A stretch of DNA of 64,000 nt, taken from contig JAPPHB010000106.1 in NCBI GenBank assembly GCA_028821195.1, positions 1 to 64,000 of the forward strand. Reading direction: 5' to 3'. Below, piece by piece: positions 7,070-50,305 of the stretch. Under the pieces are notes generated by a model. It saw nothing but the letters and a program-made list of their open reading frames with translations, searched no databases and was not told the DNA's origin. Made by a program: the position numbers and the translations under genes. This stretch comes from Gammaproteobacteria bacterium (GTDB lineage Bacteria > Gemmatimonadota > Gemmatimonadetes > Longimicrobiales > Gaopeijiaceae). Each line of letters opens with the position of its first letter. The first letter of the stretch is position 1.

Positions 7070-8466
7070 GCGCGACACGCGCGGTCATCGACTTCATCCT
7101 CGAAACGAACATCGCGGACTTCCCGGAGCGGCTGCTGAGCGAGGGTCGGCGCTGCGTGCTGGACGGCACGGGCGTGATCCTCGCCGGGTCCACGGATGCC
7201 TGCTCCCGCATCGTGCAGGACCAGATCGCGGCGCAGGGAGGGCATGCCGAGGCGACCATCTTCGGGCTGCCGGACACCCGTGCCCCGGCCCCGCTCGCGG
7301 CGCGCGCCAACGGCACGGCGGGCCACGCGATGGACTTCGACGACACGCAGCTCTCGAACGCCCCCGACCGCATCTTCGGGCTCCTCACGCACCCCACGGT
7401 GGCGCCGCTGTCGGCGGGCTACGCGATGGCGGAACGGGTCGGAGCCACCGGCGGCGAATTCCTGGAGGCGTTCCTCATCGGCTTCGAGGTGGAGTGCAAG
7501 ATCGCCGAGGCGATCGATCCCCGGCACTACCGGGAAGGCTTCCACTCGACCGCGACGATCGGCACGCTCGGGGCCTGCGCGACGGCCGCCAAACTGGCCG
7601 GGCTGGAGGCCGAAGAGCTCGCCATGGCGCTCGGTATCGCGGCGAGCCTCTCGTCGGGGATCCGGCTCGGCTTCGGCACCATGACCAAGCCGCTCCACGC
7701 CGGGCGCGCCGCCGAGAACGGCATCGTGGCGGTCGAACTCGCGGCGCGCGGCTTCACGGCCGGAAACGACGCGCTGGAGGCGCCCTGGGGCTTCTTCCGC
7801 GTGTTCGGCGGCGGCTTCGAGCCCGAACGGCTGATCGGCGCCCTCGGCGCGCCCTACACCCTGCTCGACCCCGGCGTGTCCGTGAAACCCTTCCCCTCGG
7901 GAAGCCTCGGCCACCCGAGCATGGCCGCCATGCTCGAACTCGTAACCGAGCACGACCTCGCGCCGGACGACATCGCCGGCATCACCTTCCGCGCCGGCCA
8001 CAACATCCTGAAACCGCTCAGGTATCCCGTCCCCACCAACGAGCTGGAGGCCAAGTTCTGCATCCCCTTCGTCCTCTCGAGCATCGTCCTCCGGCGCCGG
8101 GCCGGAATCCGCGAGTTCCACGACGACTTCGTCCTCTCCGAGGAGGCGGCGGACATGATGCGCCGGGTGACGGTCCGGTTCGACGAGGCCATCGACGCGC
8201 GCGGCTACGACCGCATGCGCAGCGCCATCGACGTCCACCTCCGTGACGGCACCGAACTCCACACCGAGGCCGACACCTATCCCGGCGGCCCGGAGCGGCC
8301 CCTGAGCCGGGAGGAACTGCACGCGAAGTTCCGCGACTGCGCGAGCCTCGTGATGGACGATGTGGGCATTGGTGGGGCGCTGGAAACGCTCGAGCGCGTG
8401 GACGAGCTGGGGGACATCGGGGAGTTGGTGCGTACTACCGTTCACGCCTCCGGTACTGGCCCATGA
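7066..8466 (+). CDS. MmgE/PrpD-family dehydratase-like protein
   Basis: A 466-aa MmgE/PrpD protein. Characterised members include 2-methylcitrate dehydratase (PrpD) and cis-aconitate decarboxylase; many others act on unknown hydroxy- or tricarboxylic acids. Visible hallmarks: the N-terminal helical domain with LDGTGVILAGS, the catalytic-region stretch GHAMDFDDTQ, and FHSTATIGTLGACATAAKLAG. The start is GTG at 7066, with AGGAG seven bases upstream and a 4-bp overlap with tctA. Co-translation with a tricarboxylate-type importer suggests it processes the imported acid, but the substrate cannot be read from sequence. Its 3' end overlaps the convergent serine hydrolase by 32 bp. Confidence 0.82.
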   Translation: MSATRAVIDFILETNIADFPERLLSEGRRCVLDGTGVILAGSTDACSRIVQDQIAAQGGHAEATIFGLPDTRAPAPLAARANGTAGHAMDFDDTQLSNAPDRIFGLLTHPTVAPLSAGYAMAERVGATGGEFLEAFLIGFEVECKIAEAIDPRHYREGFHSTATIGTLGACATAAKLAGLEAEELAMALGIAASLSSGIRLGFGTMTKPLHAGRAAENGIVAVELAARGFTAGNDALEAPWGFFRVFGGGFEPERLIGALGAPYTLLDPGVSVKPFPSGSLGHPSMAAMLELVTEHDLAPDDIAGITFRAGHNILKPLRYPVPTNELEAKFCIPFVLSSIVLRRRAGIREFHDDFVLSEEAADMMRRVTVRFDEAIDARGYDRMRSAIDVHLRDGTELHTEADTYPGGPERPLSREELHAKFRDCASLVMDDVGIGGALETLERVDELGDIGELVRTTVHASGTGP

Positions 8467-18643: not shown

Positions 18644-19825
18644 ATGATCCGGGCTGTCCGCGAATCCCATCTGGCCGCCCGCGCCGTCAGCGTGAAGTCC
18701 AGCTTCCGCACCCGCATGCTCGAGTTGTCCGCCGGCCTGGACGGCATCATCGCCCTCGGCCGGGGCGACCCCGACTTCGACACGCCACCGGACATCGTCG
18801 CGGCGGGGGCGGAAGCCCTGGCGGGCGGCTACACCCACTACACCGCTCCTCCAGGTCTCCCTGAACTGCGCGACGCCATCTCCCGCAAGCTCAAACGCGA
18901 CAACGGTCTCGAGTATCCGGCCAACCGGATCATCGTCACCAACGGGGTCCAGGAGGCGCTCCTCATCTCCATCCTGGCGCTGGTCGATCCCGGCGACGAA
19001 GTCGTGCTCCAGGCGCCGCGCTTCAACGCTTTCGACTACATGGTCAACCTGGCCGGCGGCCGGGTGGTCGAGGTGCCGACCCTGGAGGAGGACGACTTTG
19101 CGCTCAGGGCCGACGCCATCCGCCACGCCCTGACGGAGCACTCGAAGCTCCTCGTCATCGCGAACCCGAACAATCCCACCGGCGGACTTACGCCGCGCGA
19201 CGAGTTGGCGCGCATCGCGGCGCTCGCCGAGGAGCACGATCTCCTCGTCATCTCCGACGAGATCTACGAGAAGCTGATCTTCGGCGGGCGGGAGCATGTC
19301 AGTCTGGGCACCTTCGGCAACCTCCCCGACCGGACCGTCACCGTGAACGGCTTCTCCAAGGCGTACGCCATGACCGGGTGGCGCATCGGCTACCTGGCCG
19401 CGCCCGCGTGGTTCATGGAGCCCGCCGTCGAGATCAAGCACACGCTGAGCATCTGCACGCCCCCGGCCCTTCAGCGCGGAGCGCTCACGGCCCTGGAAGG
19501 GGGAGACGTGGCGGTCGCCTCGATGCTGGCCGAGTACGAGCGCCGGCTCGACCTCGTGCTCCGGAGCCTGGACGACATGGGGATCTCGTATGGCCGGCCG
19601 GGCGGCGGGATGTACGTATACGCCAACATCTCGAGCACCGGGCTCGACGCCGAGACGTTCTGCCTGGAGTTGTTGCGACGGGAGAAGGTGATGGTCTTCC
19701 CGGGGACCATGTTCGCGGATCCCGCCAACCGGCACATCCGCATCACGTTGCTGTCTCCCTATGCCTCCATGGAAGAAGCCCTGGGGCGGATGAAGCGTTT
19801 CGTCGAAAGGACGCGCCGGTCGTGA
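18644..19825 (+). CDS. Fold-type I (class I/II) aminotransferase
   Basis: A 393-aa PLP-dependent aminotransferase of the aspartate-aminotransferase fold. Start 18644 (MIRAVRESHLAARAVSV) is chosen because the longer reading to 18584 overlaps the amidohydrolase. Key residues are present: ALGRGDPDFDTP, THYTAPPGLPELRDAI, NPNNPTGG (Asn contacting PLP), SDEIYEKLIF (Asp), NGFSKAYAMTGWRIGY with the Schiff-base Lys, and a C-terminal IRITLLSPY carrying the carboxylate-binding Arg. Amino-donor specificity cannot be told. It resembles the enzyme at 42954 (same THY-like, SKAYAMTG and VMVFPG segments). Confidence 0.85.
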   Translation: MIRAVRESHLAARAVSVKSSFRTRMLELSAGLDGIIALGRGDPDFDTPPDIVAAGAEALAGGYTHYTAPPGLPELRDAISRKLKRDNGLEYPANRIIVTNGVQEALLISILALVDPGDEVVLQAPRFNAFDYMVNLAGGRVVEVPTLEEDDFALRADAIRHALTEHSKLLVIANPNNPTGGLTPRDELARIAALAEEHDLLVISDEIYEKLIFGGREHVSLGTFGNLPDRTVTVNGFSKAYAMTGWRIGYLAAPAWFMEPAVEIKHTLSICTPPALQRGALTALEGGDVAVASMLAEYERRLDLVLRSLDDMGISYGRPGGGMYVYANISSTGLDAETFCLELLRREKVMVFPGTMFADPANRHIRITLLSPYASMEEALGRMKRFVERTRRS

Positions 19826-38868: not shown

Positions 38869-39002
38869 GGCAGCATGGTCCGCTTGATAAGCGCCGAGCT
38901 TCCCCCCATTCTCATGCGCGCGCCTCTCCCCGGGGGCGCATGCATCGCTTCGCCAGCTCTTCCGCCCCCATTCGCGGCCACTATAGCCAACGGGATTCCA
39001 CC
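38869..39002. promoter_or_regulatory. Divergent promoter region
   Basis: A 134-bp gap between the NAT permease operon (minus) and the 2-hydroxyacid dehydrogenase series (plus). It must hold both promoters, so the two operons may share control. I see no strong palindrome. Confidence 0.35.
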
Positions 39003-40025
39003 GTGCGAGCACTCCACATCGAACCCATTGCGGACTGGATCCAGGGCCTCTTCCAGCAGGCGGCGGACGAGGCCGGCGTCGAGGTGACGTGGGGCGGCGG
39101 GATGGATGAACGGGAATTGCGCGCGGCTGCGGCCGGCGCGGACGCCCTCGTGACCGCGAAGCGGCGCATTGGCGCGGACCTGATCGACGCGTCCCCGGGC
39201 CTTCGCCTGATTCAGGTGCAGGGGCGGGCGCCCTGGGCGGTGAATCGGGACGCCGCGACTGCGGCCGGAGTGCCGGTGTCGGTGCTCCCGCACCGGGGCG
39301 CGATCGCCGTCGCGGAGCAGACCGTCGCGCTGATGCTGGGCCTCTACCGCAAGCTGGTGCCCGGGCATATGGGCACCCGGGATGCGGAATACCTGGAACT
39401 CGGCGTCGAGCCCGTGCGCACCACGGAGCGCAAGATTGCCTTCAACTGGCTGCGCTACCCCGACGTCTGGCAGCTTCACGGCAGGACGCTCGGATTGGTC
39501 GGGCTGGGCGACATCGCGCTCGAGGTCGCGCGGCGCACGCGCGCGTTCGATATGGAAGTGGTCTACCACAAGCGCTCGCCTTTGCCGCGCGAGCACGAGG
39601 AGATGGTTGGGGCGCGGTCCGTGCCGCTCCGGGAGCTCCTCGCCGCGAGCGACGTGGTCAGCCTGCACGCGCCCCATACCGACCGGACGGAGCGCATGAT
39701 CGACGCCGCGGCCCTCGCGCTCATGAAGCCCACGGCCATCCTGGTGAACACCGCGCGCGGCGGGCTGGTCGATGAAGATGCGCTCGCCGACGCCCTTCGG
39801 GACGGCCGCATCGCCGGGGCGGGGCTGGACGCCTTCCTGTACGAGCCGCTGCCCGAGGGCAGCCCGCTGGCCGATGCGCACAACGTGCTCCTGTCACCCC
39901 ATGTGGGCGGCGGGACCGGCGGTGGGCAGCGGGGAATGATCGACGATGTGGTCGGCAATCTCGTCGCGGTGACCGAAGGCGGGGCGGTGCGGGGGCTGGT
40001 GAACGGTACCCATCCACAAACCTGA
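39003..40025 (+). CDS. D-isomer 2-hydroxyacid dehydrogenase
   Basis: A 340-aa NAD(P)-dependent dehydrogenase of the phosphoglycerate/hydroxypyruvate family. I place the start at GTG 39003, which gives VRALHIEPIADW; the open frame starts at 38940. The Rossmann segment is LGLVGLGDIALEVARRT, followed by NTARGGLVDEDALADAL and the catalytic His in LLSPHVGGGTGG. The active-site Arg of NTARGG and Glu in GLDAFLYEPLPEG are in place. Substrate is unknown; glyoxylate, hydroxypyruvate and similar acids are common. Confidence 0.83.
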   Translation: MRALHIEPIADWIQGLFQQAADEAGVEVTWGGGMDERELRAAAAGADALVTAKRRIGADLIDASPGLRLIQVQGRAPWAVNRDAATAAGVPVSVLPHRGAIAVAEQTVALMLGLYRKLVPGHMGTRDAEYLELGVEPVRTTERKIAFNWLRYPDVWQLHGRTLGLVGLGDIALEVARRTRAFDMEVVYHKRSPLPREHEEMVGARSVPLRELLAASDVVSLHAPHTDRTERMIDAAALALMKPTAILVNTARGGLVDEDALADALRDGRIAGAGLDAFLYEPLPEGSPLADAHNVLLSPHVGGGTGGGQRGMIDDVVGNLVAVTEGGAVRGLVNGTHPQT

Positions 40026-40038
40026 GTCCGGAGCCTCC

Positions 40039-41268
40039 ATGCTGAGAGACCCGCTTCTGGTTGTCGCCTTCATGCTGGCCGTGGTGGCGTTCGCGCGCTG
40101 GCTGGAAGAGCGCTACGACGTCATCAAGAAGATCAGCTCCGCCGTAGTGTGCACCCTGCTCGGCATCACGTTCGCCAACGTCGGTGTGATCGAGCACACC
40201 GGCCCGGCACACGAAGCCGTGTTCACCTTCGCCATCCCCTACGCCATCGTGCTCGTCATCATGGGCACGCAGATGAGGGAATTGGCCCACGCGGGAAGAC
40301 CCTTGCTGATCGCGTACCTGGCCGCGTGCGGGGGCAGCTTCGTTGGCGGGGCCGTGGCGGGCGCGACCATGGCGGGATGGGTCGGGCCGGAAACCTGGAA
40401 GCTCTCGGGGGCGTTCTCGGCCGCCTTCGCGGGCGGCGGGATGAACTTCGCCGCCGTCGGGCAGGGGCTTGAGGTGGAGCCGAGCACCTTCGCCGCCGCC
40501 GCACTGGCCGACAACATGTCGACGGTCCCCTACCTGCTGTTCCAGGTGTGGCTGGCGGGTGTTCTGGCGGCCATCTTCCTGCGCCGAAGCGGTGCGGGGC
40601 TGGCCACGGCGCCGGCCACCGACGCCGCGGAAAAGGCAGATCAGGAGGCGCAGGAAGAGGCGATGCGCCGCCGCTGGACCGACACCGACATCAGCATTAC
40701 GGATTTCGCCATCCTGGGCGGCCTTCCCCTGGTCGCGCTCTGGCTGGCGCGGATCATCAGCGAAGCCTTCGCGGAGCGGCTTGCCGCCATGTCGGTGGGT
40801 TCACCCGGGTACGGACTCGTGGAGTTCTTCGGCGACGTGCCGGAAGTCCTCTGGCTCACGACGATTGCGCTCATCGTGGCGCAGCTTCCGTGGGTGAGGA
40901 AACTGCGCGGGGCGGAGGTGCTGTCCTACTTCGCCCTCCACATCTTCTTCATCGCGCTGGGCGCGGCCTCCGATCTGGCGACCATCGTCGACGCCGGCGT
41001 GCCCATCTTCAGCTTCATGATCGTCATCATCGGCATCCACGTCGTCGTCGCGTACGGGATCGGATGGCTCTTCCGCATCGACCTGGCCACCGTCTCGATC
41101 GCCAGCCAGGCCGCGATCGGCGGGCCGGGATCGGCCCTGGCCATCGGCATGGCGATGAAGTGGCATAAGCTCGTGGCCCCCGCGGTCATCGTGGGCATCT
41201 TCGGATACGCGCTAGGGAACTACCTTGGCTTCTTCTGCGCGCGGGTCGTGGATGCGCTTGTGGGTTAG
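40039..41268 (+). CDS. DUF819 multi-spanning membrane protein
   Basis: A 409-aa DUF819 protein (YjcL-like), a poorly characterised family with structural similarity to sodium-coupled carriers. About ten helices; conserved Gly/Pro-rich segments are AGGGMNFAAVGQGL, ALADNMSTVPYLLFQVW, and the late SIASQAAIGGPGSALAIGMAMKW. An Ala/Glu-rich soluble loop (about 200-225, ATDAAEKADQEAQEEAMRRR) divides the two halves. It follows the dehydrogenase by 13 bp. A hairpin follows its stop. Confidence 0.77.
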   Translation: MLRDPLLVVAFMLAVVAFARWLEERYDVIKKISSAVVCTLLGITFANVGVIEHTGPAHEAVFTFAIPYAIVLVIMGTQMRELAHAGRPLLIAYLAACGGSFVGGAVAGATMAGWVGPETWKLSGAFSAAFAGGGMNFAAVGQGLEVEPSTFAAAALADNMSTVPYLLFQVWLAGVLAAIFLRRSGAGLATAPATDAAEKADQEAQEEAMRRRWTDTDISITDFAILGGLPLVALWLARIISEAFAERLAAMSVGSPGYGLVEFFGDVPEVLWLTTIALIVAQLPWVRKLRGAEVLSYFALHIFFIALGAASDLATIVDAGVPIFSFMIVIIGIHVVVAYGIGWLFRIDLATVSIASQAAIGGPGSALAIGMAMKWHKLVAPAVIVGIFGYALGNYLGFFCARVVDALVG

Positions 41269-41347: not shown

Positions 41348-42175
41348 ATGCTCGCATCCAGCGTTCCAGGTCCGCCAGGCATCGCGGGCATCGACGTCCT
41401 CGTGACGGGAGCCGGCCGAGGTCTGGGTCGCGGCATCGCGCAGGCGATGGCTGCGGCGGGCGCGCGCGTGTGGCTGGTGTCGGAGGTCCGGGAGGAGCTT
41501 GAGTGGACTGCGTCCGACATCCGTGCGGCGGGGGGCGAGCCCCACATTCTCGTCACCGATCTCGGGCGCGACGATGCACGAAAGGGACTGGTGCGCACCC
41601 TCTGCGAGCAGGCCCCGCGGTTGCGGGTGATCGTCAACAACGCCGGAGTGCTGGAACGCGAGCCGGTCGCTTCAGTGGACGCCGCCCACTGGCGGCGCAT
41701 CATGAGCGTGAACCTGGAAGCCCCGGTGTTCCTGACGCGGGATCTACTGCCGCTCCTGGGGGACGAGGGCGGATCCATAGTCAACGTCTCCTCGCGCGCC
41801 GGGACCGCTGCCTTCGCACGCCAGGCGGCATATTGCGCGTCCAAATTCGGCATGGAGGCATTTACGCGATGCCTCGCGCTGGAGCTGGCGGGGTCGCGCG
41901 TCAGCGCCAACACGGTGACGCCGGGGCTCTCGATCAAGCCGACCTCCCTGACGCAAAGGGACGCGGAAAGCGCGGATGCGGCTACGCGCACAGGATGGCG
42001 GGATCCCGTTAGACTGGGGCCCGCGTTCCTCTTTCTCGCCGGGCTGCGCGGACAGGTCAGCGGCTGTCGCTTCGACGCCTGGACATTGACGCAGGCGCTG
42101 GAGCAATGGGGCACGCGGGGAGTGATGAACCGCATTCACGAAATCGCCGAATACACGCCGGAGGCTGTCGGATGA
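41348..42175 (+). CDS. Short-chain dehydrogenase/reductase
   Basis: A 275-aa SDR-family oxidoreductase. Cofactor motif TGAGRGLGRGIA (TGxxxGxG), structural NNAGVLE and catalytic S-x(n)-YxxxK with SSRAG ... YCASKFGME are all present. Acidic residue after strand 2 is not evident (WLVSEVREE), so NAD versus NADP is uncertain. Substrate unknown. The C-terminal tail (YTPEAVG) overlaps the start of the next gene (ATGA), so it is coupled with the unusual aminotransferase-like protein. Confidence 0.83.
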   Translation: MLASSVPGPPGIAGIDVLVTGAGRGLGRGIAQAMAAAGARVWLVSEVREELEWTASDIRAAGGEPHILVTDLGRDDARKGLVRTLCEQAPRLRVIVNNAGVLEREPVASVDAAHWRRIMSVNLEAPVFLTRDLLPLLGDEGGSIVNVSSRAGTAAFARQAAYCASKFGMEAFTRCLALELAGSRVSANTVTPGLSIKPTSLTQRDAESADAATRTGWRDPVRLGPAFLFLAGLRGQVSGCRFDAWTLTQALEQWGTRGVMNRIHEIAEYTPEAVG

Positions 42176-42957
42176 CCGAACCAGGTAACGGAAGCGGGCC
42201 CGAGGGAACTGCAGGGGCCGCCATGGAGGCAGCCGTCTCCCAACGGGCTGGGACCGCGGTGAAGTCCTTCGCGAGCATCGAGTCGGCTCAGCGGCGGGCA
42301 CCTACGCGGGCAGGCCCTAGCGAGGGACTTCTCGCCGGCCTGCGCCATCACCTGCTGGCCGGGGAAACCCACTATCCGGACCGCCCCGGAATGGGGGAGC
42401 TGCGCCGGCGCGTGGGCGAAGCCCTGCCCGACGTGGGCTTCCCCGTCCGCGAACCCGACGGCGTGCTCATTACCCAGGGAGAAGGGGAGTCGCTCTTCGC
42501 GACCATCCTGGGCCTCGGCGGGGGAGAGCGGGCCGCGATCGTCGCACGACCCGGAAGTCGGCATCAGCGCCTGCTCGACTGGATGCAGGTGCGCGTGATC
42601 GAACCCGGCACCGATGCTGCGTCCGAGACCGAGGCAGCATTTCGCCTGATCGAGTACGAGCGGGGGGCGGCGGTCCCGGAAAATGGGAGGGCGGCCGGCA
42701 CGCCGGGTCTCACCCAGGTACATGCCATCGGTGACCGCCTCTTCGGCGGCCCGGGCGAGGCTGCCGCCGCCCCCGCCGACGCCATCGTGATCGGCTCGCT
42801 GGACGGTCTCGAGGGAATGCACCCGTTCTCGCTCGGCTTTGTCGCGGCGCCGGTGGACGTACGGCCGCGAATCGCGAAGTGGAAGCAGGCGTCGTCGATC
42901 TGCTCTCCGGCTCCGTCGCAGCGCGCCGCCTTGTGGGCATTGGGGATACGGCCATGA
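42172..42957 (+). CDS. Degenerate fold-type I aminotransferase-like protein
   Basis: A 261-aa protein that lines up with class I/II aminotransferases but has lost catalytic features. Residues about 55-150 (ETHYPDRPGMGELRRRVGEAL, LITQGEGESLFATILGLGGGERAA) match the N-lobe. Residues 204-257 (VIGSLDGLEGMHPFSLGFVA ... PSQRAALWAL) match the PLP-lysine region of the downstream enzyme, but the Schiff-base Lys position is Gly212 and the phosphate-binding Arg is a Ser. The NPxNPTG and SDE regions and the whole C-terminal domain are missing. Start 42172 overlaps the SDR by ATGA and its stop overlaps the next start. Likely a non-enzymatic partner. Confidence 0.72.
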   Translation: MTEPGNGSGPEGTAGAAMEAAVSQRAGTAVKSFASIESAQRRAPTRAGPSEGLLAGLRHHLLAGETHYPDRPGMGELRRRVGEALPDVGFPVREPDGVLITQGEGESLFATILGLGGGERAAIVARPGSRHQRLLDWMQVRVIEPGTDAASETEAAFRLIEYERGAAVPENGRAAGTPGLTQVHAIGDRLFGGPGEAAAAPADAIVIGSLDGLEGMHPFSLGFVAAPVDVRPRIAKWKQASSICSPAPSQRAALWALGIRP

Positions 42958-44156
42958 GCGCCCCGATGAAGTCCCGGGAACGCGCGGGCTCCGCTTCGCT
43001 GCGCAAGGGGGAGGCGGCCACCTCGCTTCGTTACAAGATGATGGCGCTCGCGCGCGAAAGAGAGAATGTCATCTCGCTGGGGCGCGGCGATCCGGATCTG
43101 CACACCCAGCCGGCGATCGTGGAGGACGGCCTGGCTCGTTTCGCCGAAGCGGCGGGCGCGGAGATGGCCGCAGGGGACGGAGGACCGGTGCGTGGCCTGC
43201 TCCCGCTGCGCGAGGGCATCGCCCGCCGGTACGCCCGGGAGAAGGGCGTGGACATCGATCCCGCCACGGAAATCGCCATCACCAACGGCGCCCAGGAGGG
43301 GCTGTTCCTGGCCATGCTGGCGCTCGTCGACCCGGGCGACCGGGTCGCCTGCCAGGACCCGCGCTACAGCTCGTACGACCAGGCGATCGGGACCGCGGGC
43401 GGCGACATCGTGCCCGTCCCAACCGGAGGCGATCGGCCCTTCGAGCTCGGGGCCGCCGAACTGAGACAACACGCGCGCGGGTGCAAGCTGCTCGTCTTCG
43501 TGAATCCTTCGAACCCGACCGGATCCTGCGTCGGCCCGCAAGGCGTCCGCGATCTGGCACGGGCCGCGGGCGACCTCGACATGGTGGTGGTGTCCGACGA
43601 GATCTACGAGGACGTGGTCTTCCGCGAGGAGCCCTTCCTGTCGCTGCTCGCCGCGGATGGCGCCCGCGGGCGCACCGTGGTCCTTTCGGGATTCTCGAAG
43701 GCCTACGCGATGACCGGCTTCCGGGTCGGCTACCTGATTGGCCCGCCGGCTTTCATCGACGCGGTGGAGGCCATCAAGAGCACGACGTCGGGCCCGTGTC
43801 CGGCATTCTCGCAGTACACAGCCCTGGCCGCCCTTGAGGCCGATCCGGACCCGCGTCCGGAGTACCTGGCGCGGTATCGGCGGCGGCGCCAGGCGCTGAT
43901 CGACGGCTTCGCGGACCTGGGCGTCCCGCACGGTCCCCACGGGGGAGGCCTGTTCATGTGGGCCGACGTTTCGCGCTTCGGAATGGACGCCGAGAACTTC
44001 TGCTACCGCCTCCTGGACGAGGCGGGCGTTCTGATGTTCCCCGGGGCCTCCTTCGGCGCGAGATGGCGCAACTGGGTCCGGGTTTCGCTCCTGTGTCCCG
44101 AGGCGCGCATCCTCGAGTCGATGGAGCGCATACGGAAGTTCGCCAGCAGCCTGTAG
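42954..44156 (+). CDS. Fold-type I (class I/II) aminotransferase
   Basis: A 400-aa PLP-dependent aminotransferase. Start 42954 (ATGA overlap with the upstream gene) is chosen over the ORF start 42879. Motifs intact: LGRGDPDLHTQP, PSNPTGSCVG (Asn), VVSDEIYEDVVF (Asp-Tyr), SGFSKAYAMTGFRVGY with the Schiff-base Lys and C-terminal VRVSLLCPEA Arg. It is a close relative of the gene at 18644. The immediate upstream degenerate copy suggests a recently duplicated or heteromeric enzyme. Confidence 0.85.
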   Translation: MSAPMKSRERAGSASLRKGEAATSLRYKMMALARERENVISLGRGDPDLHTQPAIVEDGLARFAEAAGAEMAAGDGGPVRGLLPLREGIARRYAREKGVDIDPATEIAITNGAQEGLFLAMLALVDPGDRVACQDPRYSSYDQAIGTAGGDIVPVPTGGDRPFELGAAELRQHARGCKLLVFVNPSNPTGSCVGPQGVRDLARAAGDLDMVVVSDEIYEDVVFREEPFLSLLAADGARGRTVVLSGFSKAYAMTGFRVGYLIGPPAFIDAVEAIKSTTSGPCPAFSQYTALAALEADPDPRPEYLARYRRRRQALIDGFADLGVPHGPHGGGLFMWADVSRFGMDAENFCYRLLDEAGVLMFPGASFGARWRNWVRVSLLCPEARILESMERIRKFASSL

Positions 44157-45027: not shown

Positions 45028-46437
45028 ATGGGAGCGCCCGTGAGCGAACTGCTGATCGCCGGCGGCACCGTTGTAACGGCCGACCGCATGGAGCCGGCCG
45101 ACGTCCTGATCCGCGACGGGCGGATTGCCGATGTCGGACAGGACCTGACCACCGAAGGCGAGGTCCTGGACGCGACCGGCCACTGGGTCATGCCCGGAGG
45201 CATCGACACCCACACCCACCTGGCCCACCCCATCGACCGGCTGGGGATCACTACCGCCGACGACTTCTTTACCGGCACGGTCGCGGGAGCGTGCGGGGGC
45301 GTCACCACCATCATCGACTTCTCGCTGCAGCGGCGGGGCGAGACGTTGGCGCTGGCGCGTGATCGGCGCCTGGGCGAAATCGCGCCCGACGCCGTCATCG
45401 ACTATGGCTTTCACACCATCGTCACGGATGTCCGCGACGATGTCATCGCGGAAGTGCCGGAGCTGATCGAGGGAGGATTCCCGTCGTTCAAGGTCTACAT
45501 GACGTACGGCGACAAGATCGTCAACGACGACGGGCTGTTGCGGCTGCTGGAAGCGACCGGCGCCAACGGCGGGCTGGTCTACGCCCACTGCGAAAACGAC
45601 TGTGCGGTCACATACCTGATCAACCAGCACCTCAGCGACGGCAAGACCGGTCCCGCCTACCACGCCCCCAGCCGCCCCCCGGTGGTGGAGGCGGAAGCGA
45701 CCCATCGGGCCATCATGCTGGCCGGGGTTGTTGATGCGCCCCTGTGCATCGCGCACGTCACCTCGTCAGGTGCGGCGGGTCACGTGGCCGCCGCCCGCGA
45801 GCGCGGCGAACCGGTTGTGGCCGAGACCTGCCCGCAGTACCTGGTGCTCGACGAGACGGTCTACGACCCCTGCGGCGGGTTCGAGGTCGCCAAGTTCGTG
45901 TGCAGCCCCCCGATGCGGGCCGCCGAGCACCGCGACGCCCTCTGGAGCGCTCTGGCGGACGGATCCATCCAGCAGGTGTCCTCCGACCACGCCCCCTTCC
46001 GCTACCACGACCAGAAGACCACCGGGCGCGACAACTTCACCCGCATTCCCAACGGCCTGCCGGGGATCGAGACCCGCCTCCCGCTGGTGTTCGCCGGCGG
46101 CGTGTCGACCGGCCTGATCTCGCCCCAGCGCTTCGTCGAACTCGCCTCCACCAATCCGGCGCGCATCTTCGGAATGTACCCGCGCAAGGGCACGCTGGAC
46201 GCCGGAGCCGACGCGGACGTCATCGTCGTGGACCCGGAGGCGGAGACGGAAATCGACGCCGCCAGGCTCCACTCCGCCGTCGACTACAGTCCCTTCCAGG
46301 GGATGCGGGTGAGCGGCTTCCCGACCTGGACGCTTTCGCGGGGTGAAGTCATCGTCGATCGCGGGGAGCCCGTCGCGGAGCGGGGCAGGGGACGCCTGGC
46401 CGAGCGCGGGCGGATTGATCCGGCGGCGCTGCCGTGA
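45028..46437 (+). CDS. Dihydropyrimidinase/hydantoinase
   Basis: A 469-aa amidohydrolase-superfamily cyclic imide hydrolase. Metal-site motifs: GIDTHTHLAHP (HxH), SFKVYMTYG with the carboxylated Lys, YAHCENDC and IAHVTSSGA His residues and SSDHAPF Asp. Known members open dihydrouracil, hydantoins or related rings. A GTG four codons in is an alternative start. It lies in the same region as a nucleobase permease (37105), hinting at pyrimidine or hydantoin use. Confidence 0.87.
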   Translation: MGAPVSELLIAGGTVVTADRMEPADVLIRDGRIADVGQDLTTEGEVLDATGHWVMPGGIDTHTHLAHPIDRLGITTADDFFTGTVAGACGGVTTIIDFSLQRRGETLALARDRRLGEIAPDAVIDYGFHTIVTDVRDDVIAEVPELIEGGFPSFKVYMTYGDKIVNDDGLLRLLEATGANGGLVYAHCENDCAVTYLINQHLSDGKTGPAYHAPSRPPVVEAEATHRAIMLAGVVDAPLCIAHVTSSGAAGHVAAARERGEPVVAETCPQYLVLDETVYDPCGGFEVAKFVCSPPMRAAEHRDALWSALADGSIQQVSSDHAPFRYHDQKTTGRDNFTRIPNGLPGIETRLPLVFAGGVSTGLISPQRFVELASTNPARIFGMYPRKGTLDAGADADVIVVDPEAETEIDAARLHSAVDYSPFQGMRVSGFPTWTLSRGEVIVDRGEPVAERGRGRLAERGRIDPAALP

Positions 46438-48281: not shown

Positions 48282-49283
48282 CTACCCCAGCAGGTCGTCC
48301 CGCACCTCGTCGATGATGCCGTAGAAGCAGCACCATTCGCCCTCAATCACCGCGGGACGCGAGCGCAGGCCGAACACCACGCCCTCCTGCGGGGCCACGA
48401 CTGCAGCGCACTCATCGCCGTAAAGATCGAAGACCCGCCCCAGCGGCGTTCCCGCCGGGATCGACGTCTCGAAAGGCACGTTCGGCTCCCCGACCCACAT
48501 CCCGGAGGCCGGAGCCAGCAGCGCCTGCTGGTGCCCCATGCGCCACCTGGCGGCATGGCGCGCCTCGCCCTCGAGCATGCTGTAGTGGCACATCACGTTG
48601 CGGTAGCTGGCCGCCAGGTCCTCGGCCACGGCATGGAAGTCGGAGGTGAGGGTGCGGCAATTGCCCCCCAGCTCGATCGTGATCCCGGCCTTGCCCAACT
48701 CGGCGATCTTCGAGGAGGGATTGGCGCCGCCCACGCCGCTGCGGAACACCAGGTCCCATTGCGGCCCCATCGCCGCTGCGAGCTCGAAGCTGGGCGGGTT
48801 GTCGGAGGCGAAGATCATGTGCGCGAGGTAGGAGTGCTCTCCCCCCGAATGCACAGCGATCTGGAGGTCGCAGGTGTCCTTCATGGCCTGCCAGTGCGCC
48901 CACGCCGCCCGTTCGGTCGGATAGCCATCGGCCCGCCCCGGATAGATGCGGTTCATGTCGTATGAGAAGGTGTCGAGCGGGTCACCGCGCTTGCCTGCCT
49001 CGAACGCGGGCACGTTCATCGCCGGAACCCCGACCACCGTCCCGCTCACCTCAGTGGCATCGAGCGTCGCGAACAGCTTGAAGATCGAGAGCGCGCCCTC
49101 CGGCTCGTCCCCGTGGGTGGCGCCGTTGATCCAGAGGATCGGGCCGTCGGATGCGCCCCGGCATATCAGGATGGGAATCTCGCGCGCGACCGCGGCCACG
49201 TCCGATCCGACCGGTATCGCGCCCCGGGTGATCGTCCCGGGAGCCGCCTCCGCGCTCCCGATCACCAGCGTTTCGTTACTCAT
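48282..49283 (-). CDS. Aspartoacylase/succinylglutamate desuccinylase-family hydrolase
   Basis: A 333-aa zinc-dependent deacylase or carboxypeptidase of the AspA/AstE (M14-related) family. Zinc ligands: ATHGDEPEG (HxxE) and the later His in IAVHSGGEHSY. A catalytic Glu is likely in TIELGGNCRT. Members deacylate N-acyl amino acids or act as related amide hydrolases. It starts with ATG 49283, overlapping the LDH2-type dehydrogenase gene by four bases; so their products are coupled. Confidence 0.82.
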   Translation of the reverse strand: MSNETLVIGSAEAAPGTITRGAIPVGSDVAAVAREIPILICRGASDGPILWINGATHGDEPEGALSIFKLFATLDATEVSGTVVGVPAMNVPAFEAGKRGDPLDTFSYDMNRIYPGRADGYPTERAAWAHWQAMKDTCDLQIAVHSGGEHSYLAHMIFASDNPPSFELAAAMGPQWDLVFRSGVGGANPSSKIAELGKAGITIELGGNCRTLTSDFHAVAEDLAASYRNVMCHYSMLEGEARHAARWRMGHQQALLAPASGMWVGEPNVPFETSIPAGTPLGRVFDLYGDECAAVVAPQEGVVFGLRSRPAVIEGEWCCFYGIIDEVRDDLLG

Positions 49284-50305
49284 GTACGCTCCAGTGAGAA
49301 TGGCACCCCCAGCTCTTCGGCCAGCGCCCGCAGCCGCACCACCGTCTTCGGATCCATCGGGATGCCGTGCTTCAGTCGATGCCGCGCCCGCTCCTGTTCC
49401 GCCTGCCCGGGCAGCTGAACCGGTTTGTCCGGATCGATCGGCGATGCGCCGAGCACATCCGCGATCAGCCGCTCGAGCCTGTCCTCGAACTCCCCTCGCT
49501 CCATGAACGCCTCGATGTCGATGGCGATCATGGTATGGGCCACATCGTAGTTCTCGTCGTCCTGGAATACCTGCGCCCCGAAGAGCGACCCCGTCAGCAC
49601 GCCCGTGAGAATGTCTGTGATGAGGCTGAGGCCGTAGCCCTTGTAGTCGCCAATGGGGAGCAGGGGGCCCTTCATGGCCGTGTGGGGGTCCGTGGTGCGC
49701 GCGCCCGCGGGCGTGAGCGCCCAGTGGTCCGGCATCGGCAGCCTCGCGCGCCTCAGCCAGCGCATCATCCCCTTGCCGGACTGTGTCAGCGCCATATCCA
49801 GCACGATGGGGTCCCGCCCGCCGGCCCTCGGAACCGCCATGCCCCAGGGGTTCGTGCCCAGGATCGGCCGGGTCGCGCCCCATGGAGCCATCTCTGCGCC
49901 CGCGTTCGTCATCGAAATCCCGATCAGGCCAGCGTCCGCCGCACGCTTGGCGTGGAAGCCGGCGATCCCGAAGTGGTTGCTGTGCCGCACCCCGACCATC
50001 GCCACCCCTGCCTGCCGCGCCATCTCCACGGCCCGGTCCATGGCCCGACGCCCGGCGACGTATCCGAGTCCCTTGTTGGCATCGAGGAGTGCTGCGGCGG
50101 ACCGCTCCCGCACCCAGGTCATCGGCGCATCGGGGAGAATCCCCCCGTTGCGCATGCGCCTCGCGTAGCGAAACAGCTTCTCAAGTCCCTGGTGCTGTCC
50201 CGGATGCCACCAGAGCGACGCCGTCACGACCCCGTCGGCGTTGATGCGGGCTTCCTCGTCGCTCGCCCCCAGCGCCCGCAACACGTCTTCAGCGAATCCG
50301 CGCAC
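49280..50305 (-). CDS. LDH2/malate-ureidoglycolate dehydrogenase family
   Basis: A 341-aa NAD(P)-dependent dehydrogenase of the malate/L-lactate/ureidoglycolate (LDH2) family. Features: VGVRHSNHFGIAGFHAKRA (catalytic His), TNAGAEMAPWGAT, LGTNPWGMAVP and DYKGYGLSLITDILTG. With GTG 50305 it lacks about 18 residues at the N-terminus that relatives carry. In frame, ATC at 50359 is preceded by GGGGAG seven bases upstream and gives ITYHLDERVAVERFRELS-V, so a rare start codon is plausible. No ATG, GTG or TTG lies between. Confidence 0.82.
   Translation of the reverse strand: MRGFAEDVLRALGASDEEARINADGVVTASLWWHPGQHQGLEKLFRYARRMRNGGILPDAPMTWVRERSAAALLDANKGLGYVAGRRAMDRAVEMARQAGVAMVGVRHSNHFGIAGFHAKRAADAGLIGISMTNAGAEMAPWGATRPILGTNPWGMAVPRAGGRDPIVLDMALTQSGKGMMRWLRRARLPMPDHWALTPAGARTTDPHTAMKGPLLPIGDYKGYGLSLITDILTGVLTGSLFGAQVFQDDENYDVAHTMIAIDIEAFMERGEFEDRLERLIADVLGASPIDPDKPVQLPGQAEQERARHRLKHGIPMDPKTVVRLRALAEELGVPFSLERT

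Follow-up and report, generated by a model that had tools for sequence, protein, structure and literature searches.

The window analysed here, a stretch of 64,000 nucleotides forming the start of contig JAPPHB010000106.1, encodes a 261-residue protein without a pyridoxal phosphate (PLP)-binding lysine, hereafter the pseudo-subunit, and directly downstream of it a 400-residue class-I aminotransferase, hereafter the live partner. We consider it probable that these two proteins, the products of the frames beginning at 42172 and 42954, form an obligate 1:1 fold-type-I (class-I aminotransferase) heterodimer with a single composite active site, a reading to which the reciprocal pattern of active-site tyrosine and lysine in the two chains points. 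On balance we also favour a history of reciprocal degeneration, in which the residue that the live chain once lent disappeared from it, and the lysine, the NPTG motif and the entire C-terminal domain disappeared from the dead chain, so that a half-subunit of ~220-290 residues survives only to complete the active site of its partner.

The pseudo-subunit is a relative of class-I aminotransferases

A preliminary description of this DNA, made from the letters alone, had reported an intact frame for a 261-aa product at 42172-42957 with ATGA overlaps on both sides, and translation together with the junctions bears this out: the frame shares 4 nt with the gene for a short-chain dehydrogenase/reductase (SDR) on one side and 4 nt with the live aminotransferase gene on the other. 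The word "fused" in that description overstated the arrangement, which consists of two open reading frames sharing 4 nt. The kinship of the product to the downstream aminotransferase, claimed on the strength of two similar blocks, is less apparent from simple searches. BLASTP of the 42172 product against the 42954 product returned nothing significant (best E-value 2.9) and a Pfam search of the 42172 product gave zero matches, so that from these two sequences alone the similarity of the two window proteins does not rise above chance. NCBIfam models gave weak aminotransferase matches to the two blocks (best E-value 1.8e-7), and a profile of 21 pseudo-subunit sequences matched MJ0684 of M. jannaschii (2z61) firmly over the whole sequence (E-value 6.4e-11), with the two blocks as two collinear stretches that individually reach 0.0028 and 0.00053.

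The fold search agrees with the profile. An AlphaFold2 model of the pseudo-subunit, of moderate quality (pLDDT, the per-residue confidence score, 69; pTM, the predicted TM-score, 0.70), has as its best Foldseek match the aspartate aminotransferase (AspAT) of Thermus (1gck, E-value 2.2e-9, probability 1.00), and the best 50 of the 796 matches with an E-value no higher than 0.001 belong to the aminotransferases or to related PLP enzymes, mostly judged by their titles; among those listed, we take BacF, DapX and Pyrococcus protein A1 to be aminotransferases or PLP enzymes as well. The model retains seven strands in their proper sequence, joined by shorter connections than those of the live enzyme's model, which has a pLDDT of 78.7 and falls below 50 at residues 71-78, around a loop that will concern us below. 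The 42172 product is the large domain of a fold-type-I superfamily member and a relative of class-I aminotransferases, and the chance similarity at which single-sequence BLASTP and Pfam had hinted is overturned by the family profile and the fold search.

The active-site losses named in the preliminary description fared differently. Alignment confirms that the place of the PLP-binding lysine is occupied by Gly212 in the window copy, and Gly or Ser stands there in 23/23 distinct sequences. Absence of the C-terminal domain likewise holds throughout, all members of the family ending where the large domain ends, without the small domain. Replacement of the phosphate-binding Arg by Ser is true of the window copy and is not a family trait, a by-eye count of 21 aligned rows giving Arg in 9, Ser in 9 and Asp in 3. 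The NPTG motif is gone as stated; of the SDE strand, which had been counted as missing too, many members still have a remnant, which in the window reads GDRLF. As a candidate for a closer assignment, membership of the guanitoxin cyclodehydratase GntC (NF041364) was rejected, the live partner scoring 246.9 bits and the pseudo-subunit 30.4 bits against a cut-off of 415. No NCBIfam model scores higher than NF041364 with either protein, yet matches below the cut-off occur in all 14 control genomes as well, so the match marks the general subfamily only.

The pair is conserved as a pair

A scan of species genomes with patterns that included HYPDRPGM and PRIAKWKQ led to 20 loci (numbered with L; genomes are numbered with G), and our collection holds 23 distinct pseudo-subunits, namely 21 aligned rows, with the window included, and those of G168 and G118. 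Every one of the 23 is lysine-less, has an open frame, shares a common C-terminal endpoint and lies directly 5' of the same live aminotransferase, with identity to the window copy reaching down to 39% for the pseudo-subunit and to 59% for the partner. The overlap between the two genes is ATGA or GTGA in 20/20 loci and in the window.

Searches that started from either protein lead to the same set of genomes. Among 395 genomes of the phylum, the live protein has an orthologue in 19 (60-100% identity, with a clear gap to paralogues near 40%), all 19 carry an adjoining pseudo-subunit, and no genome has such a partner only. The pseudo-subunit profile found 20 carriers among the same genomes, which are those 19 and G162, whose contig ends inside the partner gene; G162 has the same coordinates and contig end as locus L016 and is on this basis taken to be its genome, and in L016 only the first partner residues are on the contig. 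None of the 22 profile matches contains an internal stop. The preliminary description had named a conserved pair with the lysine always absent as support for its idea, and homologues with a full active site as evidence against it: other genomes do have the conserved pair, never with the lysine, and no homologue with a full active site occurs among the family members found. A separate search of 59 genomes gave 20 with a match at an E-value of 1e-3, which divide into 12 true members (genomes of the same genus and G023) and 8 weak matches. In a maximum-likelihood tree of 57 sequences over 124 block columns, from which PS_L012 and duplicates were left out, the pseudo-subunits form one clade (splits with support of 92-100) and the live partners another (100); the pseudo-subunit branch is very long, and for this reason the tree leaves undecided whether the pseudo-subunit descends from a duplication of the live gene.

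Some details of the collection bear on how its members are read. The pseudo-subunit of L012 has an incomplete N-terminus, as this locus starts near a contig end; pseudo-subunit starts in the more distant loci are our own choice, and the partner row of L020 begins a few codons before the overlapping GTG. The pseudo-subunits of L005, L008 and L009 are 28 residues longer than the window copy and have a fast middle with Ser-, Ala- and Pro-rich stretches. The records of L001, L004 and L007, titled Gammaproteobacteria, match G008, G002 and G010 by identity or coordinates and belong to the same genus as the window, and most other family loci are titled Gemmatimonadetes or Gemmatimonadota; the Gammaproteobacteria titles look outdated or wrong.

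Reciprocal loss of lysine and trans-type tyrosine

The strongest evidence was missed in the preliminary description: the best-kept blocks of the pseudo-subunit match trans-donated segments, and the live partner is without the donated Tyr. We use human kynurenine aminotransferase I (KAT-I) and AspAT as points of reference and take Tyr63 of the former to be equivalent to Tyr70 of the latter. In KAT-I, whose PLP lysine is Lys247, Tyr63, Phe278 and His279 are contributed by the other subunit according to passages of two papers (PMC4926479, PMC12808825), and in AspAT, by a passage of a third (PMC6715241), Tyr70 binds the phosphate of PLP and carries the label Tyr70* as a residue from the adjoining subunit. 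Block 1 of the pseudo-subunit, GETHYPDRPGM, aligns its Tyr68 at the Tyr70*-type place in the alignment with 2z61 as well as in the family alignment. The block is invariant in the 21 aligned rows, and two further members have THYPARPGM and THYPERPGM. Because HYPDRPGM was among the scan patterns, the invariance in those loci arises partly from the way they were picked; the live-protein and profile searches need no exact HYPDRPGM, and they brought in the THYPARPGM and THYPERPGM members.

Block 2, WKQASSICSPAPSQ, contains Ile243 and Cys244 exactly 31 and 32 residues past the dead lysine place, the same +31/+32 spacing at which Phe278 and His279 follow Lys247 in KAT-I. In these columns, which are ungapped, the normal paralogue encoded at 18650-19804 of the window has Ile-Cys and the live partner Gly-Pro, and over the core of the block the pseudo-subunit (SSICSPAPSQ) resembles the paralogue (LSICTPPALQ), the live partner reading TSGPCPAFSQ. 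Consecutive invariant residues among the 21 aligned pseudo-subunits number 11 in block 1 and 8 in block 2.

The trans-type Tyr is present in 23/23 distinct pseudo-subunits and the corresponding loop Tyr in 0/22 distinct live partners, two of which (representing four loci) have a Tyr further upstream, before the invariant Phe63. The live protein matches PF00155 with an E-value of 4.4e-58, its residues Asn187, Asp215, Tyr218, Ser248, Lys249, Arg257 and Arg376 are identical throughout an alignment of 20 sequences, and its Tyr-less loop bears a conserved RGL motif of its own. Among class-I relatives found without use of the pseudo-subunit, all of those examined (16/16) carry the Tyr. These controls comprise L064-L074 and the window paralogue (12 of 24 paralogue matches) together with four aminotransferases of the window's own genome, in which these four and the window's two make up 6 of the 10 matches. 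Loci L033-L044 were found through block 1 of the pseudo-subunit and are hence biased towards Tyr (7/7 aligned), and they were kept out of the 16; within this group L034 was dropped for length, L038 gave no match and L041-L043 are family members. The window paralogue, likewise a class-I aminotransferase and 38-39% identical to the live partner, has the features customary in the class, the trans-type Tyr and an SIC loop among them, and it serves as a natural control of the homodimer type. As the alignments have it, the dead chain keeps the segments that would be due to the live chain in trans, and the live chain is without the Tyr for which only a dead pocket would be the recipient.

Selection on the pseudo-subunit

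Ratios of nonsynonymous to synonymous substitution rates (dN/dS), pooled over the 10 pairs among five same-genus sequences, are lowest in the regions around the two blocks, at 0.026 for residues 49-79 (block 1) and 0.033 for residues 231-261 (block 2), and reach 0.48 in residues 1-48 and 0.35 in residues 114-203. For the whole pseudo-subunit the value is 0.23, against 0.070 for the live gene. Taken as a whole, the dead protein has a rate roughly three times that of the live one, with certain parts evolving more slowly than the live average. The pseudo-subunit is not a decaying pseudogene: it is under purifying selection and its frames are unbroken, and the earlier judgement that it is not obviously decaying is upheld by its conservation in 23/23 sequences and by the dN/dS of 0.03 in the two blocks.

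A proposed composite active site and its alternatives

In the heterodimer that we propose, the live subunit would give the PLP-binding lysine together with the cis residues (Asn187, Asp215, Tyr218, Lys249, Arg257 and the substrate Arg376), and the pseudo-subunit, cut down to a minimal large domain, would replace the second subunit of an ordinary homodimer, lending in trans Tyr68, for the PLP phosphate, and residues 242-244, the Ser-Ile-Cys loop, for the substrate pocket. With the pocket of the pseudo-subunit dead, the matching trans Tyr of the live subunit would no longer have been needed and may have been lost for that reason. The overlap of start and stop codons would couple synthesis of the two chains. 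A dead chain that needs mainly an interface and two donated loops would explain the loss of the C-terminal domain, the loss of NPTG and the rapid drift of the middle, and the constraint on residues 80-113 and 204-230 would then have to reflect fold or interface. A physical complex, its stoichiometry, the inactivity of the lone live subunit and the transamination of some amino or keto acid on which the products of the neighbouring genes act are what this model predicts. The idea of the preliminary description, that the pseudo-subunit is stable and acts as a regulator or heterodimer partner of the live enzyme, is supported by the conserved pair, the constant absence of the lysine and the aminotransferase-like fold.

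Several observations weigh against the composite active site. Residues 80-113 (dN/dS 0.053) and 204-230 (0.086) are also well kept, so that trans donation alone is insufficient to account for the pattern; the L010/L011 pair, from another group, has a dN/dS of 0.68 overall (block 1, 0.27; block 2, 0.12); and the block values are set against the whole-gene mean of the live gene, with dS noisy in such short blocks. The structural model of the pseudo-subunit is only moderate, with pLDDT below 50 at residues 1-45 and 241-246, and its overlay on known structures is loose, given query TM-scores of about 0.5 (0.54 for Thermus AspAT, at a root-mean-square deviation of 9.9) and deviations of 5-12 over the listed range. 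The phosphate Arg of the dead pocket is retained in 9/21 members, so this pocket may have some role. Members of known kinship come from three genera of one family, and the whole pattern may therefore rest on one loss of Lys and one loss of Tyr. A live homodimer without the trans Tyr could, moreover, still be active.

The live enzyme might accordingly work as a homodimer of the usual sort from which Tyr70* is missing by chance, with the pseudo-subunit as a separate, non-catalytic regulator or stabiliser that binds the live enzyme or the SDR protein. The live enzyme does retain dimer-type segments of its own, among them the PxxSQ loop, as well as an entire small domain, and coupled translation and conservation of the pseudo-subunit would suit any complex partner. 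A regulator, however, need not have trans-type segments as its best-kept parts (dN/dS 0.026 and 0.033 against 0.23 for the whole), and the reciprocal distribution of the Tyr (23/23 against 0/22) would have to be a coincidence; we regard this explanation as unlikely. Blocks of 11 and 8 consecutive invariant residues exceed what the donation of a few side chains requires, and this, together with the constraint on residues 80-113 and the conserved RGL motif of the live loop, would fit a dead protein with a new role of its own, for example ligand or partner binding through its WKQASSIC and HYPDRPGM surfaces, the loss of Tyr from the live chain then reflecting a changed substrate. Such an independent role is distinctly improbable in our estimation, as in 395 genomes the pseudo-subunit was never seen without the live gene, save in the one case cut by a contig end. 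What remains is a decaying duplicate, translated merely from its position between coupled genes, a view that could draw on the fast N-terminus (0.48) and middle (0.35), the changes in length and the 0.68 of the L010/L011 pair. It is in effect refuted by an open frame and common C-terminal end in 23/23 distinct sequences down to 39% identity, by the very strong purifying selection on the blocks and by the lack of stops inside 22 matches.

Gene neighbourhood

The positions of the two genes, of their active-site segments and of the neighbouring genes are collected in Table 1. Where contigs permit, the conserved gene order is D-2-hydroxyacid dehydrogenase, DUF819 permease, SDR, pseudo-subunit, aminotransferase, in some loci a peroxiredoxin, and hydantoinase.

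Table 1. Coordinates in the window of the gene pair, its active-site segments and the surrounding cassette
Feature	Position	Strand	Remarks
Pseudo-aminotransferase subunit, 261 aa	42172..42957	+	Lysine-less minimal fold-type-I large domain, without C-terminal small domain
Live class-I aminotransferase partner, 400 aa	42954..44156	+	cis PLP residues kept, without Tyr70*-type Tyr
Block 1 of pseudo-subunit, GETHYPDRPGM, residues 64-74	42361..42393	+	Holds Tyr68 (Tyr70*-type)
Gly212 codon of pseudo-subunit, PLP-lysine place	42805..42807	+	From alignment with live enzyme and 2z61
Block 2 of pseudo-subunit, WKQASSICSPAPSQR, residues 237-251	42880..42924	+	Ile243/Cys244 at +31/+32 from lysine place
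Live-enzyme loop DGGPVRGL, residues 75-82	43176..43199	+	Where class-I enzymes bear the trans Tyr
D-2-hydroxyacid dehydrogenase	38940..40025	+	Conserved cassette member
DUF819 permease	40039..41268	+	Conserved cassette member
SDR oxidoreductase	41348..42175	+	Upstream neighbour; 4-nt overlap with pseudo-subunit
D-hydantoinase/dihydropyrimidinase	45028..46437	+	Conserved cassette member; TIGR02033 above cut-off

In all three groups inspected (window 48282-50305 on the minus strand, L015 9249-11335 and L018 10370-12464), genes for an AstE/AspA-type hydrolase and an Ldh_2 dehydrogenase lie facing the cassette, so that conservation of the neighbourhood extends beyond the operon. In L017 a gene for a chorismate-mutase type II domain (7222-7758) stands directly 3' of the hydantoinase. 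The hydroxyacid dehydrogenase, SDR, hydantoinase, AstE/AspA-type hydrolase and Ldh_2 dehydrogenase suggest amino- or keto-acid catabolism in general terms.

Meaning and relation to known systems

The known form of a class-I aminotransferase is a homodimer in which two active sites are shared between identical chains, each carrying all residues. If the heterodimer proposed here is real, a pair in which each chain is missing what the other supplies would show such sharing ratcheting into an obligate heteromer, and its natural parts would make the contribution of the trans-donated residues testable. It would also be a warning for annotation, in that a Pfam-blank gene next to a "complete" aminotransferase can encode an indispensable half of the enzyme. 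The expectation in the preliminary description that such a pair would be new is only partly justified, since dead/live heterodimers of fold type I are known from LCB1/LCB2 of serine palmitoyltransferase (SPT). A class-I aminotransferase heterodimer with reciprocal loss and a truncated dead subunit was not found described in a limited search of open-access PubMed Central, which is weak evidence of absence, and exact phrases such as "heterodimeric aminotransferase" had no occurrence in the open literature searched there.

Among bacterial systems, the glycine decarboxylase GcvPA/GcvPB has one homologous half that is catalytically dead. The Thermus enzyme (1WYT) appears as two named subunits in a table entry of PMC6522883. 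Like the present pair it is a bacterial PLP enzyme encoded by two genes; unlike it, it is a glycine decarboxylase and not a class-I aminotransferase. In SPT, as part of PMC3794620 presents it, only one of the homologous subunits LCB1 and LCB2 has the PLP lysine and the other has further predicted catalytic residues, with a single active site as the working hypothesis. The likeness to our pair lies in homologous subunits of which one is lysine-less, the dead one here keeping trans-type residues. SPT differs in being a member of the alpha-oxoamine synthase family that carries out another reaction, with a membrane-bound core enzyme in humans, and the pair described here differs in its class-I aminotransferase kinship, in a dead subunit without the small domain and in a live subunit without the trans Tyr. 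In fold, in both blocks and in the positions of the lysine and of the trans residues, the pair is like T. thermophilus AspAT (1gck), MJ0684 (2z61) and human KAT-I, and passages on KAT-I and AspAT describe dimers with active sites that draw residues from both subunits (PMC4926479, PMC12808825, PMC6715241).

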